A DNA stretch of 20,433 bases from a virus: positions 1-20,433 of IMG/VR virus record IMGVR_UViG_3300009059_000078; one strand, given 5' to 3'. The notes under the pieces were generated by a model. It did no database searches. It saw nothing but the letters and a program-made list of their open reading frames with translations, and was not told the origin of the DNA. Positions 9,974 through 17,113 of this stretch are shown in pieces. A program made the translations under genes and the position numbers. Position 1 is the stretch's first letter. Every line of letters starts with the position of its first letter.

Positions 9974-10243
9974 ATGTTAGCTACAAGTTTAGTTTTCGGT
10001 TCGTTCATTATCATAATGTTTTTTGTTGTGGGAATACTGATTGGATGGGTTTCCAGAGAGTATATGATGAATTATCGTGAGATACCCAGACAGCATCCAG
10101 AACTCTTTGATAGAGACGGAAACTTGATCGCTGATGAAGTGGTTTCTTTAAGTGTTTCGCCAGATTTTTATGAAGGATTTCAACAAGAATATGGGGGTCT
10201 GTTTAATGATGATGACGATGATGACGATGATGATGAAGAATAA
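9974..10243 (+). CDS. Small membrane protein with poly-Asp C-terminus
   Basis: 89 residues. Residues about 8-26 form one transmembrane helix (FIIIMFFVVGILIGWV), followed by a charged domain (REIPRQHPELFDRDGN) and an extreme acidic tail of nine Asp and two Glu. The likely topology is a membrane anchor with a soluble acidic domain. GGAG at 9963-9966 is a well-placed ribosome site. Similar small proteins occur in cyanophages, but no function is known. The acidic tail could bind cations or basic proteins or mimic DNA, which is speculation. The tail is encoded by a GAT/GAC triplet tract. Confidence 0.7.
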   Translation: MLATSLVFGSFIIIMFFVVGILIGWVSREYMMNYREIPRQHPELFDRDGNLIADEVVSLSVSPDFYEGFQQEYGGLFNDDDDDDDDDEE

Positions 10244-14136: not shown

Positions 14137-14466
14137 ATGCCAAACATTTTGGAAAGTCTTTTAGAGATTAAAATAGAAAACATGAAATTAGATCCCCCAG
14201 ATTTAGAAAAATATAACGAGCAATTAGAAAAGCAAATTAATGAAAAGTTTCTTTCTCCATCCAAGTTTTCACTCGAAATTGAGAATATAGTTGTTGAGGA
14301 AAAATGTAATTATATCGACGCTATTATTATGTTTTGCGAACAAAATAATATTGAAATCGAATCAGTAACTAAACTGATCTCAAAACCATTAAAAGATAGA
14401 TTAAAGTATGATGCGATGAATCTTAATTTTATGAAGAAAACTTCGAAAGCCAAATTGCCTATCTAA
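14137..14466 (+). CDS. 33: gp33, late-transcription co-activator
   Basis: 109 residues, close to the 112 of T4 gp33. The central part (SLEIENIVVEEKCNYIDAI, MFCEQNNIEIE, then a C-terminal helix) aligns with the T4 region EKMVEEFGMSYLEA / FLEENSIPE, which forms the helices bound by the RNA polymerase beta flap. In T4, gp33 links the sliding clamp to polymerase at late promoters together with gp55. Gene order 33-59-32 is the T4 order, which supports the call. Its stop overlaps the gene 59 start (TAATG). Confidence 0.8.
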   Translation: MPNILESLLEIKIENMKLDPPDLEKYNEQLEKQINEKFLSPSKFSLEIENIVVEEKCNYIDAIIMFCEQNNIEIESVTKLISKPLKDRLKYDAMNLNFMKKTSKAKLPI

Positions 14467-15053
14467 TGTCCCCCTTTGAAACTTATCAGGCATATTTGGG
14501 ACTGAAAAATCATTTCAGTAATCCCAAATATGATTACTTTAAATATAAAAAAACAAGAGCAACACTAACTTCTTTCAATAAACGCAAAGACAAATACTTC
14601 TTCGAGAAATCTTCAAGAAAATATAATGACAAAGAAATTGTAGATTTTTTAGTATCAAACTTTATAGCGGCAGACAATCCCCAGAGCATATGGATCGGGC
14701 ACATTATCAATTCTGGAGAAAGAACATACGCAGAATGGATGAAAAGACAACAGAGTTTAACCTACTTATTCAAAGAACAATCAACGGCATTATTCTCGGG
14801 AAAAGAATTAAAAAGTGTCTTCGACTGCTCGAAGGGTCATCCAATTATTCTAAAGACATTCTTAAGAAATGATATATCAATTGAGAATATGGTAATATAT
14901 GATACAATATTTTCATTTTCTAAAGAGTATGATAAAAAACTTATAGACCCTATATGGGAAATGACATCTCTTAAAATTAAAAAATATAAACCTTTTATAC
15001 ATATTGATATATTCTATTATAAAAAACTATTGCGGGACATTATTAATGAGTAA
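14466..15053 (+). CDS. 59: gp59, helicase loader
   Basis: 195 residues (T4 gp59 has 217). The segment KRKDKYFFEKSSRKYND, with IVDFLVSNFIA and IWIGHI, matches T4 gp59 around RRDKYFFQKLSEKY and AWIGDI. gp59 binds forked DNA and gp32 and loads the gp41 helicase for recombination-dependent replication. The chain is basic and helical throughout. It is coupled to gene 33 by TAATG and overlaps the next gene by 8 bp. Confidence 0.88.
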   Translation: MSPFETYQAYLGLKNHFSNPKYDYFKYKKTRATLTSFNKRKDKYFFEKSSRKYNDKEIVDFLVSNFIAADNPQSIWIGHIINSGERTYAEWMKRQQSLTYLFKEQSTALFSGKELKSVFDCSKGHPIILKTFLRNDISIENMVIYDTIFSFSKEYDKKLIDPIWEMTSLKIKKYKPFIHIDIFYYKKLLRDIINE

Positions 15054-15375
15054 TTTTTTTAATTCTGAACTGGTTCAGAAAGAACTAAAAGAAATTAATG
15101 AACTTTCAGAAACTCTTTATGAGAGACTGTTTTCATTTACTATGGGTCCTCGTGAAGAAAAAATAGAACATATTAATAAAATGACGGAACTTCTTGAAAA
15201 ACAGCAGATTATGTATACGAGAATATCATTATCTGATGATCCGGAAGCAATTGAAATCAGAGAAAATCTAAAGAAGTCAGTTGTCATTATGGGATTCGCC
15301 CAAGATACTGATATGAGTATTCTCTTTGGTAATATGAAACAAACTATTGAATCCCTTAAAAATTATCTTGACTGA
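15046..15375 (+). CDS. DUF1825 protein shared by cyanobacteria and cyanophages
   Basis: 109 residues from ATG 15046, which overlaps the end of gene 59 by 8 bp; an in-frame upstream start at 15004 lies deeper in gene 59 and is unlikely. The start SNFFNSELVQKELKEI, a long helical middle (MTELLEKQQIMYTRISLSDDPEA) and the end MSILFGNMKQTIESLKNYL resemble DUF1825, a small helical family known mainly from cyanobacteria. Function is unknown. Its place between genes 59 and 32, where T4 has nothing, suggests a link to replication or late transcription. Confidence 0.7.
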   Translation: MSNFFNSELVQKELKEINELSETLYERLFSFTMGPREEKIEHINKMTELLEKQQIMYTRISLSDDPEAIEIRENLKKSVVIMGFAQDTDMSILFGNMKQTIESLKNYLD

Positions 15376-15381
15376 TTGGTA

Positions 15382-15388
15382 ATAAATA
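15382..15388 (+). promoter_or_regulatory. Late promoter-like element upstream of the split hairpin
   Basis: ATAAATA seven bases after the DUF1825 stop. A transcript from here would contain the right arm and part or all of the left arm of the hairpin. Confidence 0.4.
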
Positions 15389-15425
15389 CAAATGCCTGAT
15401 CGGGTGACACTTTTCAGGTTAGATT

Positions 15426-15449
15426 GGAGTGCTTCGGTGCTCCTTTCTT
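15426..15449 (+). terminator. Hairpin terminator with UUCG tetraloop
   Basis: GGAGTGC (15426-15432), TTCG loop, GTGCTCC (15437-15443): a 7-bp stem with two G-U pairs on a C(UUCG)G tetraloop, then TTTCTT. It would end transcripts of the 33-59-DUF1825 unit, though the T run is short. Confidence 0.65.
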
Positions 15450-15450
15450 G

Positions 15451-15458
15451 TATAAATA
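15451..15458 (+). promoter_or_regulatory. Perfect T4 late promoter for the homing endonuclease
   Basis: TATAAATA, identical to the T4 late consensus, 24 nt before ATG 15483 and directly behind the terminator. Initiation a few bases downstream removes the left arm of the hairpin. Confidence 0.75.
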
Positions 15459-15482
15459 CTTATGTCACCCGATTAGAGAAGA

Positions 15483-16133
15483 ATGAAAAAGTATTTTTAT
15501 GTCTATTACTCTTATGAAGAGTTTGGTAATGGATATATTGGAAAAAGAGAATGTAAATGTCTTCCAGAAGAAGATATAAATTATTTTGGAAGTTTTAGAG
15601 ACAAAACTTTTAAACCAACTCAAAAAATCATTTTAGAAACTTTTGATAGCGTAGAAGATGCACTTGAGGCAGAATGTGTTCTTCACGACTTTTATGAAGT
15701 AGATAAAAATCCTCATTTTGCCAACAAAGCAAGGCAAACTTCTAAAAAGTTTTATTATATTACTCCAAGTGAAAATATGATTGGCGAAAATAACCCAGCA
15801 AAAAGACCAGAAGTTAGAAAGAAAATATCAGATTCTGCTAAAAATAGAAAAGCATCTGAAGAAACCAAAAGAAAAATGAGTAAATCACATATGGGAAGAA
15901 TATCTCCAAAAGGAATGCTTGGCAAAAAACTTACAGAAGAGCAAAGGGAGCAAATACGAGAAAGAAAAGTAGCAAGAGATAATAAAACTTGGGTAATGAA
16001 AGATCCGGAAGGAAAAATACATACCGCAAATAATCTCAAATATTTTTGCGAACAAAATAATCTCACCGATTCAGCTATGCATCATGTAATTTGTGGTAAA
16101 AGAAATCACCATAAAGGTTGGACGAGGGCTTGA
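15483..16133 (+). CDS. GIY-YIG homing endonuclease with NUMOD motifs
   Basis: 216 residues. The N-terminal GIY-YIG domain has YVYYSY (6-11), GYIG (17-20) and the catalytic-type R22, with a Glu in ALEAECVLHDF (60-70) as the metal ligand. The middle (about 100-160) is rich in Lys/Arg, with NUMOD3-like DNA-binding repeats (KKISDSAKNRKAS, KRKMSKSHMG). The C-terminus (WVMKDPEG, NNLKYFCEQN, HHKGWTRA) is a helix-turn-helix-like NUMOD1/IENR-type domain. It is a free-standing mobile gene inserted between the DUF1825 gene and gene 32, which in T4 directly follows 59. Expression is probably restricted to late infection by the hairpin and late promoter ahead of it. It looks intact. Confidence 0.85.
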   Translation: MKKYFYVYYSYEEFGNGYIGKRECKCLPEEDINYFGSFRDKTFKPTQKIILETFDSVEDALEAECVLHDFYEVDKNPHFANKARQTSKKFYYITPSENMIGENNPAKRPEVRKKISDSAKNRKASEETKRKMSKSHMGRISPKGMLGKKLTEEQREQIRERKVARDNKTWVMKDPEGKIHTANNLKYFCEQNNLTDSAMHHVICGKRNHHKGWTRA

Positions 16134-16158
16134 CATCCCTTTATAAATCTTCTATAAT
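16130..16158 (+). promoter_or_regulatory. Consensus sigma70-type promoter for gene 32
   Basis: TTGACA (16130-16135), a 17-bp spacer and TATAAT (16153-16158). The -35 box includes the endonuclease stop codon. It gives gene 32 its own early promoter with a leader of roughly 37 nt. Confidence 0.85.
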
Positions 16159-16177
16159 AAAGATGTCATAAAAACAA

Positions 16178-16201
16178 ATCCAATTTATCCAAAAAATCCA
16201 A
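16178..16201 (+). promoter_or_regulatory. Phased ATCCAA repeats in the gene 32 leader (putative operator)
   Basis: ATCCAA occurs at 16178, 16187 and 16196, an exact 9-nt period running up to the start codon at 16202. The leader from about 16167 to the ATG has no G, so no Shine-Dalgarno and little structure. T4 gp32 represses its own mRNA by cooperative binding to an unstructured leader; this could be the equivalent site. Confidence 0.5.
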
Positions 16202-17113
16202 ATGTCATTTGCAAATCTTAAAAAACAATCCAAACTAGGTTCTTTAACTGAAAAACTAGTTAAAGAAGTTCAAAAAATGAATAATAGTAGTAGTTCGGGG
16301 GATGAGCGTTTCTGGAAACTCGAATGCGACAAAGCAAATAATGGTTATGCGGTAATTCGCTTTCTTCCTGCTCCTGATGGAGAAGACCTGCCGTTTGTAA
16401 AACTTTATAGTCACGCATTTCAGGGAACCGGAGGTTGGTATATTGAAAATAGTAGGACTACTATTGGAGAAAAAGATCCAGTTTCGGAATATAATTCTGA
16501 ACTTTGGAATAATGGAACTGACGCTGGTAAAGAAATTGCTCGCAAACAGAAGCGCAAACTGACGTATATTTCCAACATTTATGTCGTAAAAGACCCCGCT
16601 AATCCAGAAAACGAAGGTGGTGTTTTTCTGTATAAGTTCGGCAAAAAAATCTTTGACAAACTTACTGCGGCGATGCAACCTGAGTTTGAGGATGAGGAAT
16701 CAATTGACCCATTTGACTTCTGGAAAGGTGCTAACTTTAAACTGAAGGCAAAGAATGTTGCCGGATATCGTAACTATGATTCGAGTGAGTTTGCTGTTCC
16801 TGGACCTCTTCTGGATGATGATGATGCTCTGGAGGCACTATGGAAGAAGCAGAACTCTCTCGCTGAACTTGTTGCCCCAAGTCAGTTTAAGTCTTATGAA
16901 GAACTGAAGACTCGTCTTGATTCTGTTCTTGGAACTAAAGGTTCTCGTCGTACTGATGAAGAAGTTAATGATGAGGATGACTATCGTGGTTCGGCACCAT
17001 CACTCACCGAGGATCTTCGTGGAGAACTCAATAGTCTAAAATCATCTCGCTCTGTTGCGGTTGATGATGAGGATTTTGACGAATTGTCATATTTCGCAAA
17101 ATTAGCAGAATAG
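16202..17113 (+). CDS. 32: gp32, single-stranded DNA-binding protein
   Basis: 303 residues (T4 has 301). The N-terminal basic stretch KQSKLGSLT (8-16) corresponds to the LAST motif for cooperativity. FWKLECDKANNGYAVIRFLP (37-56), GGWYIENS, YISNIYVVKDP, NEGGVFLYKFGKKIFDKL and FDFWKGANFKLKAK match the OB-fold core. An acidic C-terminal tail, used for protein contacts, ends the chain. The T4 zinc ligands (one His, three Cys) are reduced to H71; the three Cys positions read S84, D92 and S95, and the only Cys in the protein is C42. It coats ssDNA in replication and repair and works with gp59. A terminator follows directly. Confidence 0.93.
   Translation: MSFANLKKQSKLGSLTEKLVKEVQKMNNSSSSGDERFWKLECDKANNGYAVIRFLPAPDGEDLPFVKLYSHAFQGTGGWYIENSRTTIGEKDPVSEYNSELWNNGTDAGKEIARKQKRKLTYISNIYVVKDPANPENEGGVFLYKFGKKIFDKLTAAMQPEFEDEESIDPFDFWKGANFKLKAKNVAGYRNYDSSEFAVPGPLLDDDDALEALWKKQNSLAELVAPSQFKSYEELKTRLDSVLGTKGSRRTDEEVNDEDDYRGSAPSLTEDLRGELNSLKSSRSVAVDDEDFDELSYFAKLAE

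Follow-up and report, generated by a model that had tools for sequence, protein, structure and literature searches.

The stretch of DNA analyzed here (the window) is one IMG/VR virus record of 20,433 bases which, judged by its gene content, is a fragment of a T4-like cyanophage. On the + strand, the gene for the gp59 helicase loader (14466–15053; Pfam T4_Gp59_N/C) is followed by a DUF1825 gene (15049–15375; Pfam DUF1825, E 1.7e-12), by the leader that is the subject of this study, and by a free-standing homing-endonuclease gene (15483–16133) that is GIY-YIG-like by motif and contains a NUMOD3 repeat. A consensus sigma-70-type promoter, probably that of gene 32 (16130–16158, + strand; TTGACA-17-TATAAT, 12/12), overlaps the stop codon of the endonuclease gene with its -35 box, and gene 32 itself, encoding the single-strand DNA-binding protein, is located at 16202–17113 (+ strand; Pfam gp32, E 2.9e-49). 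It should be noted that gp59, taken for the upstream neighbor of the leader in a preliminary description of this locus, is indeed present, but one gene further up; the immediate neighbor is the DUF1825 gene. Elsewhere in the window, positions 85–2292 hold a 735-codon ORF with many collagen-like GTQGLQG repeats.

The endonuclease protein matches the PHROG homing endonuclease family phrog_314 (E 2.6e-24) and Pfam NUMOD3 (E 1.5e-6), whereas the Pfam GIY-YIG model did not match it at E 0.1. The assignment to homing endonucleases holds, while the GIY-YIG label given to the gene earlier rests only on a YVY...YIG motif recognized by eye. The nearest named relative found was the Synechococcus phage S-SRM01, with 79.3% DNA identity over 14900–16400, 82.9% amino acid identity between the two endonucleases, and identical gene order. 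In S-SKS1, P-SSM2 and three single-cell AG-345 records, the DUF1825 gene adjoins gene 32, and both the endonuclease and the leader are absent from this junction. This is the pattern expected of a homing endonuclease, with the site occupied in the carrier and empty in relatives (there are no data on cleavage). Because the endonuclease-free relatives are without such a leader, the comparison of these junctions suggests that it probably arrived together with the endonuclease.

The leader is built around an inverted repeat of 14 bp (93% complementary, one G-U, arms 53 nt apart), with the left arm, CTGATCGGGTGACA, at 15396–15409 and the right arm, TGTCACCCGATTAG, at 15463–15476 on the + strand; both arms are supported by the inverted-repeat search and by covariation. 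Between the arms, the terminator scan found an inner UUCG hairpin (15426–15443) which, together with the adjoining TTTCTT, resembles an intrinsic terminator (15426–15449), and a perfect late-promoter motif, TATAAATA, occupies 15451–15458 (P2, predicted +1 at G15464). A weak, purine-rich Shine-Dalgarno-like sequence, AGAGAAG (15475–15481), overlaps the end of the right arm shortly before the ATG at 15483. These four elements had been reported in the preliminary description, and all were recovered, the repeat at exactly the same coordinates. That account left out three things: a second late-promoter-like motif, a small hairpin in which most of the left arm is held, and the way the whole arrangement has spread as a module. 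The second motif, AATAAATA, is located at 15381–15388 (P1), with its predicted +1, G15394, beside the left arm. The small hairpin (15395–15418), supported by the fold and by covariation of its pairs 4 and 5, is formed by CCTGA (15395–15399) and TCAGG (15414–15418), and its loop contains most of the left arm. In the S-SRM01 leader, the arms and the promoter are nearly identical to those of the window; the inner hairpin has quite a different sequence and is still a hairpin.

The length of the repeat alone is unexceptional, since the 10.4 kb between positions 10000 and 20433 contain 5 inverted repeats of this kind (12 nt or longer, within 120 nt), and that of the leader is not the longest; it is conservation and not length that raises it above chance. 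The terminator scan gave 6 such sites in 6.5 kb, compared to 3.7 expected. The two strands of the window together contain 6 copies of the late-promoter core ATAAATA, compared to 10.75 expected, and two of these copies fall in the leader (15382–15388 and 15452–15458). The fold of 15380–15500 has a predicted energy of -37.8 kcal/mol (z = -5.1), and none of 200 shuffles was as good. No Rfam model reached the gathering score in the window, nor in a set of the window plus five module loci.

A protein search of IMG/VR with the window endonuclease yielded 48 loci. The leaders of these relatives fall into three arm classes, each self-complementary, and TATAAATA lies between the arms in nearly all of them. 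We counted by script 45 leaders, i.e., those of the window and of 40 of the 48 loci, plus L001, L008, L054 and L057; the last two belong to the 48 loci, with a moved start, and thus 42 of the 48 were covered. Arms with at least 8 Watson-Crick pairs around TATAAATA were found in 34 of the 45 leaders (18 distinct sequences), two leaders are truncated by the contig end, and nine fail the threshold (L008, L030, L037, L043-L045, L046, L054 and L057), with 7-bp arms visible by eye in L043-L045. A lack of both arms in relatives of the gene, which would have refuted the proposed switch, is therefore not what we found. In the homologue L037, which lacks the module, an AT-rich inverted repeat covers the ATG and there is no internal TATAAATA, as judged by eye.

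A left-arm pattern search revealed further copies, also preceding other endonucleases. A pairing-free pattern was also used, consisting only of the promoter motifs and the small CCT/AGG hairpin; at least 120 stretches, mostly from IMG/VR, were fetched. Among the 137 distinct matches listed for this pattern, the predicted duplex was below -14 kcal/mol in 95%, compared to 12% when the right arms were shuffled. When P1 was not required and P2 was relaxed, 131 of 176 candidates paired, compared to 7.0 by shuffling; one of the 131 (L199 at 2618) was dropped as a chance match, which left 130 modules. With GCT/AGC instead of CCT/AGG in the pattern, at least 8 Watson-Crick pairs were present in 80 of the 89 distinct sequences listed, compared to 22.4 after shuffling; the shuffled figure is high because arms are common to many of these copies.

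We aligned 78 non-redundant copies, all of which had been chosen for at least 8 Watson-Crick pairs; the fraction of paired cells in this alignment, 89.2%, is therefore conditioned on that choice. The arms co-vary, which is the outcome that the preliminary description had hoped to see in a comparison of the leader among relatives: both partners have changed in 12 of the 14 stem pairs, with a covariation score of 0.592, compared to 0.197 for shuffled arms and at most 0.118 for slid ones. At least 51 different 15-nt left arms occur in the cassette, and 40 different 8-nt arm tips were counted. In a rigid count at 12 stem positions of the 78 copies, G-U occupied 60 cells and A-C only 3; this excess points to RNA of the + strand, although it was somewhat favored by the helix search, which permitted G-U and not A-C. 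From these alignments, we conclude that the long stem is an RNA stem of the + strand.

Transcription starts were placed by the spacing of T4 late promoters, which puts the +1 of P1 at the base just 5' of the CCT of the left arm. In 39 of 40 modules fetched without requiring P1 (related sequences, not independent), TAAATA lies exactly 6 nt 5' of CCT, and the +1 of P1 is a purine in 129 of 130 modules. In the 78 copies, a T is found at -1 in 68 cases for P1 and in 72 for P2, and a purine at +1 in 77 cases for each; at unpaired TATAAATA sites, used for comparison, the corresponding numbers are 60/132 and 104/132. The consensus of P1, often NCTAAATA, is weaker than that of P2, which reads TATAAATA in 127 of the 130 modules, most of them fetched by a pattern that demanded this sequence. 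The accessible part of one study gives the cyanophage late motif as NATAAATA (PMC2984593). The possibility that P1 is an intergenic by-product was considered and is not supported, as a second leader family (see below) has no P1 at matching spacing.

Pairs 4 and 5 of the small hairpin co-vary, with 75 and 63 of the 78 copies paired, respectively, and none of 2000 shuffles as high, whereas pairs 6 and 7 show no excess over shuffling in the same copies. The first three pairs were set by the search pattern and carry no evidence; at the sequence level, the case for this hairpin rests on pairs 4 and 5 plus the GCT/AGC forms. The inner hairpin had been proposed to act as a terminator and as a second barrier; a terminator-like hairpin is present, but it is not universal, as 22 of the 130 modules have a poor T-tract (only 3–4 T in the best 8 of the last 12 nt before P2), which weakens the view that a terminator is indispensable.

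An ORF of at least 60 codons follows the module in 125 of the 130 cases. Two modules without such an ORF, L160 and L169, are perhaps remnants of nuclease loss. Matches of the 125 proteins were to PHROG family 314 (99 proteins), Pfam NUMOD3 (73), Pfam GIY-YIG (PF01541; 7), HNH_3 (3), endonuclease VII (1) and TnpB-type families (2), the last two being OrfB_IS605 proteins with Cas12f1-like_TNB (L199 and L217). These TnpB-type genes lie under the cassette in cyanophage-like contigs, at L199:3958-5151 (+) and L217:8052-9245 (-). Grouping by blastp gave 8 unlinked groups (105, 11, 2, 2, 2, 1, 1 and 1 proteins), and 6 of 51 arm types were found with more than one group. In a tree of 25 endonucleases related to that of the window, with long end branches at L040 (short) and L102, the leader class changes at least 8 times, where the minimum is 3 and the shuffled value is 10.8. 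As 8 changes are fewer than the shuffled value, exchange is likely but not free, and the cassette appears to have been exchanged between nucleases.

At least one further, non-nuclease protein similar to S-SRM01 (E 1e-10) is encoded in 115 of 120 module loci, those of S-SRM01 included, and, as far as searched, the cassette is confined to T4-like cyanophages. The tight pattern matched 12 stretches in GTDB bacterial and archaeal genomes, with 7 Watson-Crick pairs at best and none reaching 8; these matches were all taken as chance. In blastn searches of 50,697 phage records with a class-B leader and an L097 leader, no isolate with the cassette beyond S-SRM01 was found; a weak match of 26 nt was seen in S-N03. 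The family-1 pattern, run over 8 isolate records, was positive in S-SRM01 alone, three times.

Some GCT-type modules precede short proteins whose C-terminal parts resemble homing endonucleases, whereas their N-termini are different and no catalytic domain was recognizable. Those at L332:5694-6155, L340:6448-6786 and L359:2512-2991 match PHROG 314; those at L352:3647-4063 and L384:7720-8118, judged by eye only, match no family. We also observed the second leader family, which follows the same logic: TGGGCAGCAAC, a loop with the left arm, GTTGCGTAAGTCCCA, a late promoter, and a right arm ending near the ATG. It was found at L145:2065-2093, L218:3233-3260 and other IMG/VR stretches (61 in all), as well as in L009 (phage Sf-CH5). 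At least 9 Watson-Crick pairs are present in 44 of its 45 distinct copies, compared to 18.4 after shuffling, the arms being alike. P1 is not conserved in this family: TAAATA occurs in 13 of 44 copies, 11 of them at a spacing that gives T at +1. A separate stretch, ACGCAAGTAAGTCGCGGAACGGAGCG, is common to the endonuclease leaders of Sf-CH5 (L009, approximately 2480–2540) and S-B43 (L010, approximately 2450–2510).

In the complete genome of S-SRM01, we tested 97 NATAAATA sites, and 10 had flanking arms with at least 10 Watson-Crick pairs, compared to 0.8 expected. These 10 sites represent 9 places (two sites at one of them), all of which precede nuclease-type genes; the hairpin-led genes of the homing type number seven in this phage. 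Seven of the genes match PHROG nuclease families (18053, 48536, 51291, 62515, 192466, 126172 and 142306); 77663 matches only unnamed families, which 51291 and 62515 match as well, and 56059, for which no family match was obtained, is regarded as GIY-YIG-like because of its motif and its resemblance to other module proteins. When 9 Watson-Crick pairs were allowed, 12 sites were found, compared to 2.7 expected, and the two additional sites are not before nuclease genes. Four annotated nuclease genes of S-SRM01 (91021 on the minus strand, 122512, 209850 and 211986) have no such leader. A fifth annotated nuclease gene, that of the psbA intron (207752), has TATAAATA in an imperfect hairpin directly ahead of its start (approximately 207700–207752) that was invisible to the scan and is close to the classic intron arrangement of T4. 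In the annotated record (MW015081.1), the starts of CDS 51291 and 192466 are placed inside the hairpin leader, and an ATG after the right arm would give the usual endonuclease N-terminus; at 126172 and 142306, which are endonuclease VII genes, the late-promoter motif lies in a hairpin of 17 bp and 10 bp, respectively, that reaches the start region. A word search of the published S-SRM01 description (PMC8557907), limited to its accessible part, found homing endonucleases mentioned and no promoter or hairpin.

The anatomy of the leader, its conservation, the covariation of its arms and its association with nuclease genes are direct observations. We consider it probable, as part of one explanation, that positions 15381–15482 are one copy of a portable regulatory cassette placed before selfish nuclease genes of T4-like cyanophages. 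The mechanism that we infer by comparison, and in which we have good confidence, is a T4-type switch in cis, such that read-through RNA hides the start region and late RNA does not. For I-TevI and other endonucleases of T4, the early read-through RNA is untranslated, with a hairpin over the ribosome site, and expression comes from a late promoter that omits the left arm, according to the accessible parts of two papers (PMC2988022, PMC3014915). In the cyanophage leader, RNA reading in from upstream would contain both arms, and their pairing would bury the region before the start codon; part of this RNA should already end at the inner hairpin. Once the late sigma system is active, transcription from P2 would start at the second base of the right arm, and the resulting mRNA, without the left arm, would be translatable, so that the nuclease would be withheld until late infection. 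Early read-through, termination at the inner hairpin, the activity of P1 and P2, and the repression and release of translation all remain inferences.

Both transcripts were folded, as suggested earlier for a check of this switch. The 14 nt before the ATG are predicted to be less accessible in the read-through RNA than in the P2 RNA in 74 of 78 copies, with mean unpaired probabilities of 0.34 and 0.57, respectively. For the leader of the window, to which that of L012 is identical, the values are 0.18 and 0.42; this difference is moderate, and the ATG itself is not freed. Several other points speak against the switch: the Shine-Dalgarno-like site is weak, the stem stops 6 nt short of the ATG, the P2 RNA of the window is itself predicted to pair around the ATG, the T-tract of the inner hairpin is poor in 22 of the 130 modules, some genes have no such leader (9 of 45 relatives without arms at the threshold, and the four nuclease genes of S-SRM01), and the two sites added in S-SRM01 at 9 Watson-Crick pairs lie away from nuclease genes. 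Of the two sequence tests for a T4-type leader, that of a stable hairpin reaching the translation start region is met by the fold, the inverted repeat and the covariation, and that of a late promoter between the arms is met by motif and spacing, the start site being a prediction. On the whole, the switch proposed in the preliminary description is supported by comparison, i.e., by arms in 34 of 45 leaders, covariation and the predicted accessibility, with its mechanism inferred. The cis switch leaves P1 unexplained, as P1 would make an untranslatable RNA.

Other explanations were also considered. It is common for a terminator to stand directly before a promoter, and the hairpins might only insulate, with the inner terminator and the long stem ending upstream transcription or protecting the mRNA, without any control of translation; this reading would leave unexplained why the outer arms co-vary across approximately 50 nt and why they reach so close to the start codon (to within 10 nt), and we regard it as unlikely. 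We find it harder still to believe that the inverted repeat acts as DNA, i.e., as a binding site of the endonuclease (autorepression as by I-TevI), as a cruciform, or as a mobility end. The module does travel with mobile genes, and the operator bound by I-TevI lies over the late promoter of its own gene (PMC2988022, accessible part), but the excess of G-U over A-C cells (60 versus 3) has no reason at the DNA level. In addition, one arm can be found with several protein groups that are not linked to each other (this holds for 6 of 51 arm types), and among homologous endonucleases the arm class varies (8 changes in the 25-row tree). The arm is therefore hardly the recognition site of the protein; there could still be an operator in another part of the leader.

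A reading that would give P1 a role is tentative. Here, P1 is a real late promoter, and an RNA of approximately 57 nt, ending at the inner hairpin, binds in trans the P2 mRNA of the same module and damps the nuclease late in infection; such an RNA may act in addition to the cis switch. A short RNA up to the inner hairpin is predicted as the simplest use of P1. In the window, it would span the 57 nt of 15394–15450 (+ strand) and be antisense to the beginning of the P2 mRNA, with a predicted fold of -22.7 kcal/mol, the arm tip in a loop, and predicted binding to the P2 mRNA of -15.2 kcal/mol; across the 130 copies, its length, measured to P2, is 46–67 nt. This reading is favored by the fixed spacing of P1, seen in 39 of 40 copies that were fetched without requiring it, by its -1 T/+1 purine signature, shared with P2, and by the lack of a conserved P1 in the second leader family, in which arms and a late promoter are present. 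The 7-nt arm tip is predicted to be more unpaired than paired in the short RNA of all 78 copies, and the median predicted binding energy is -14.2 kcal/mol for cognate pairs, compared to -1.9 kcal/mol for non-cognate ones. Six S-SRM01 modules are predicted to bind their own mRNA at -12.6 to -16.0 kcal/mol and each other's no better than -8.5, which would make them mutually orthogonal. However, the short RNA is predicted by sequence only, P1 and the terminator being recognized by motif, and there are no transcript data; the weaker consensus of P1 and the 22 of 130 copies with short T-tracts, which may not terminate, also count against it. Differing arms give orthogonality under any model, and a cross-reaction (-13.3) is predicted between the window RNA and the S-SRM01 module that belongs to its arm class. 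No arm is shared within any of 11 same-locus pairs (9 loci), which is uninformative because only 4% of non-cognate pairs bind at -10 or better; avoidance of shared arms within a genome was therefore set aside for lack of power.

Antisense RNAs that control plasmid copy number diversify into orthogonal pairs. By extension, the cassette could be a plug-in device with two promoters: the antisense RNA made from P1 would present its recognition stretch in a loop and match precisely the 5' end of the mRNA made from P2, and in read-through RNA the arms would pair in cis as well. With arms diversifying into orthogonal pairs, each nuclease would be subject to silencing by its own kind, and in a co-infected cell the resident copy could shut down a newcomer. 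We consider this elaboration rather doubtful. Returning to the cis switch, the portable hairpin cassette is a promising timing device that is experimentally unproven. In T4-like cyanophages, one cassette with at least 51 left arms serves different nuclease groups, TnpB among them, and different sites. This suggests that, for selfish nucleases to persist in these genomes, expression generally has to be late and damped. The cassette represents a natural library of matched RNA pairs for testing control in cis and in trans; it would also offer late-gated, orthogonal RNA switches for cyanobacterial work and a sequence signature by which nuclease genes that were mis-started or overlooked could be found.

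This version of the cassette was not found in word searches of the literature, with most subscription papers beyond their scope. The leaders of I-TevI, I-TevII, I-TevIII and segB of T4, and of mobE of Aeh1, likewise cover the ribosome site of the read-through RNA with a hairpin and have a late promoter that omits the left arm and a homing-endonuclease gene downstream (PMC2988022, PMC3014915, in their accessible parts). The cyanophage cassette differs from these leaders by a second late-promoter-like motif at the left arm, a left arm held in a small hairpin, a terminator-like hairpin between the arms, and the use of one cassette for many loci and several nuclease groups. The segG gene of T4 is likewise a free-standing GIY-YIG-type gene beside gene 32, with gene 32 promoters within it, much as the gene 32 promoter of the window overlaps the endonuclease stop codon; however, segG is counted among the promoter-less cassettes, whereas the window gene has its own late promoter and hairpin and follows DUF1825 (PMC2988022, as far as its accessible text goes). 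In T4, the initiation regions of genes e, soc and 49 are structured and follow the same cis logic, which the endonuclease VII genes of S-SRM01, with a late-promoter motif in a hairpin, resemble; the T4 genes are the phage's own, with individual hairpins and no shared cassette in the part of the source available (PMC3014915). The CfrI antisense RNA of cyanophage S-PM2 (psbA/F-CphI) is a non-coding RNA linked to a homing endonuclease, as is predicted here, but it is approximately 225 nt long and antisense to the gene, whereas the RNA predicted here is approximately 57 nt long, comes from the same strand and would act via the inverted repeat (PMC2984593, accessible part). Thus, hairpin-gated endonuclease leaders of the T4 type have already been described for single genes, and, within the literature accessible to us, the shared cassette is a new version of them.
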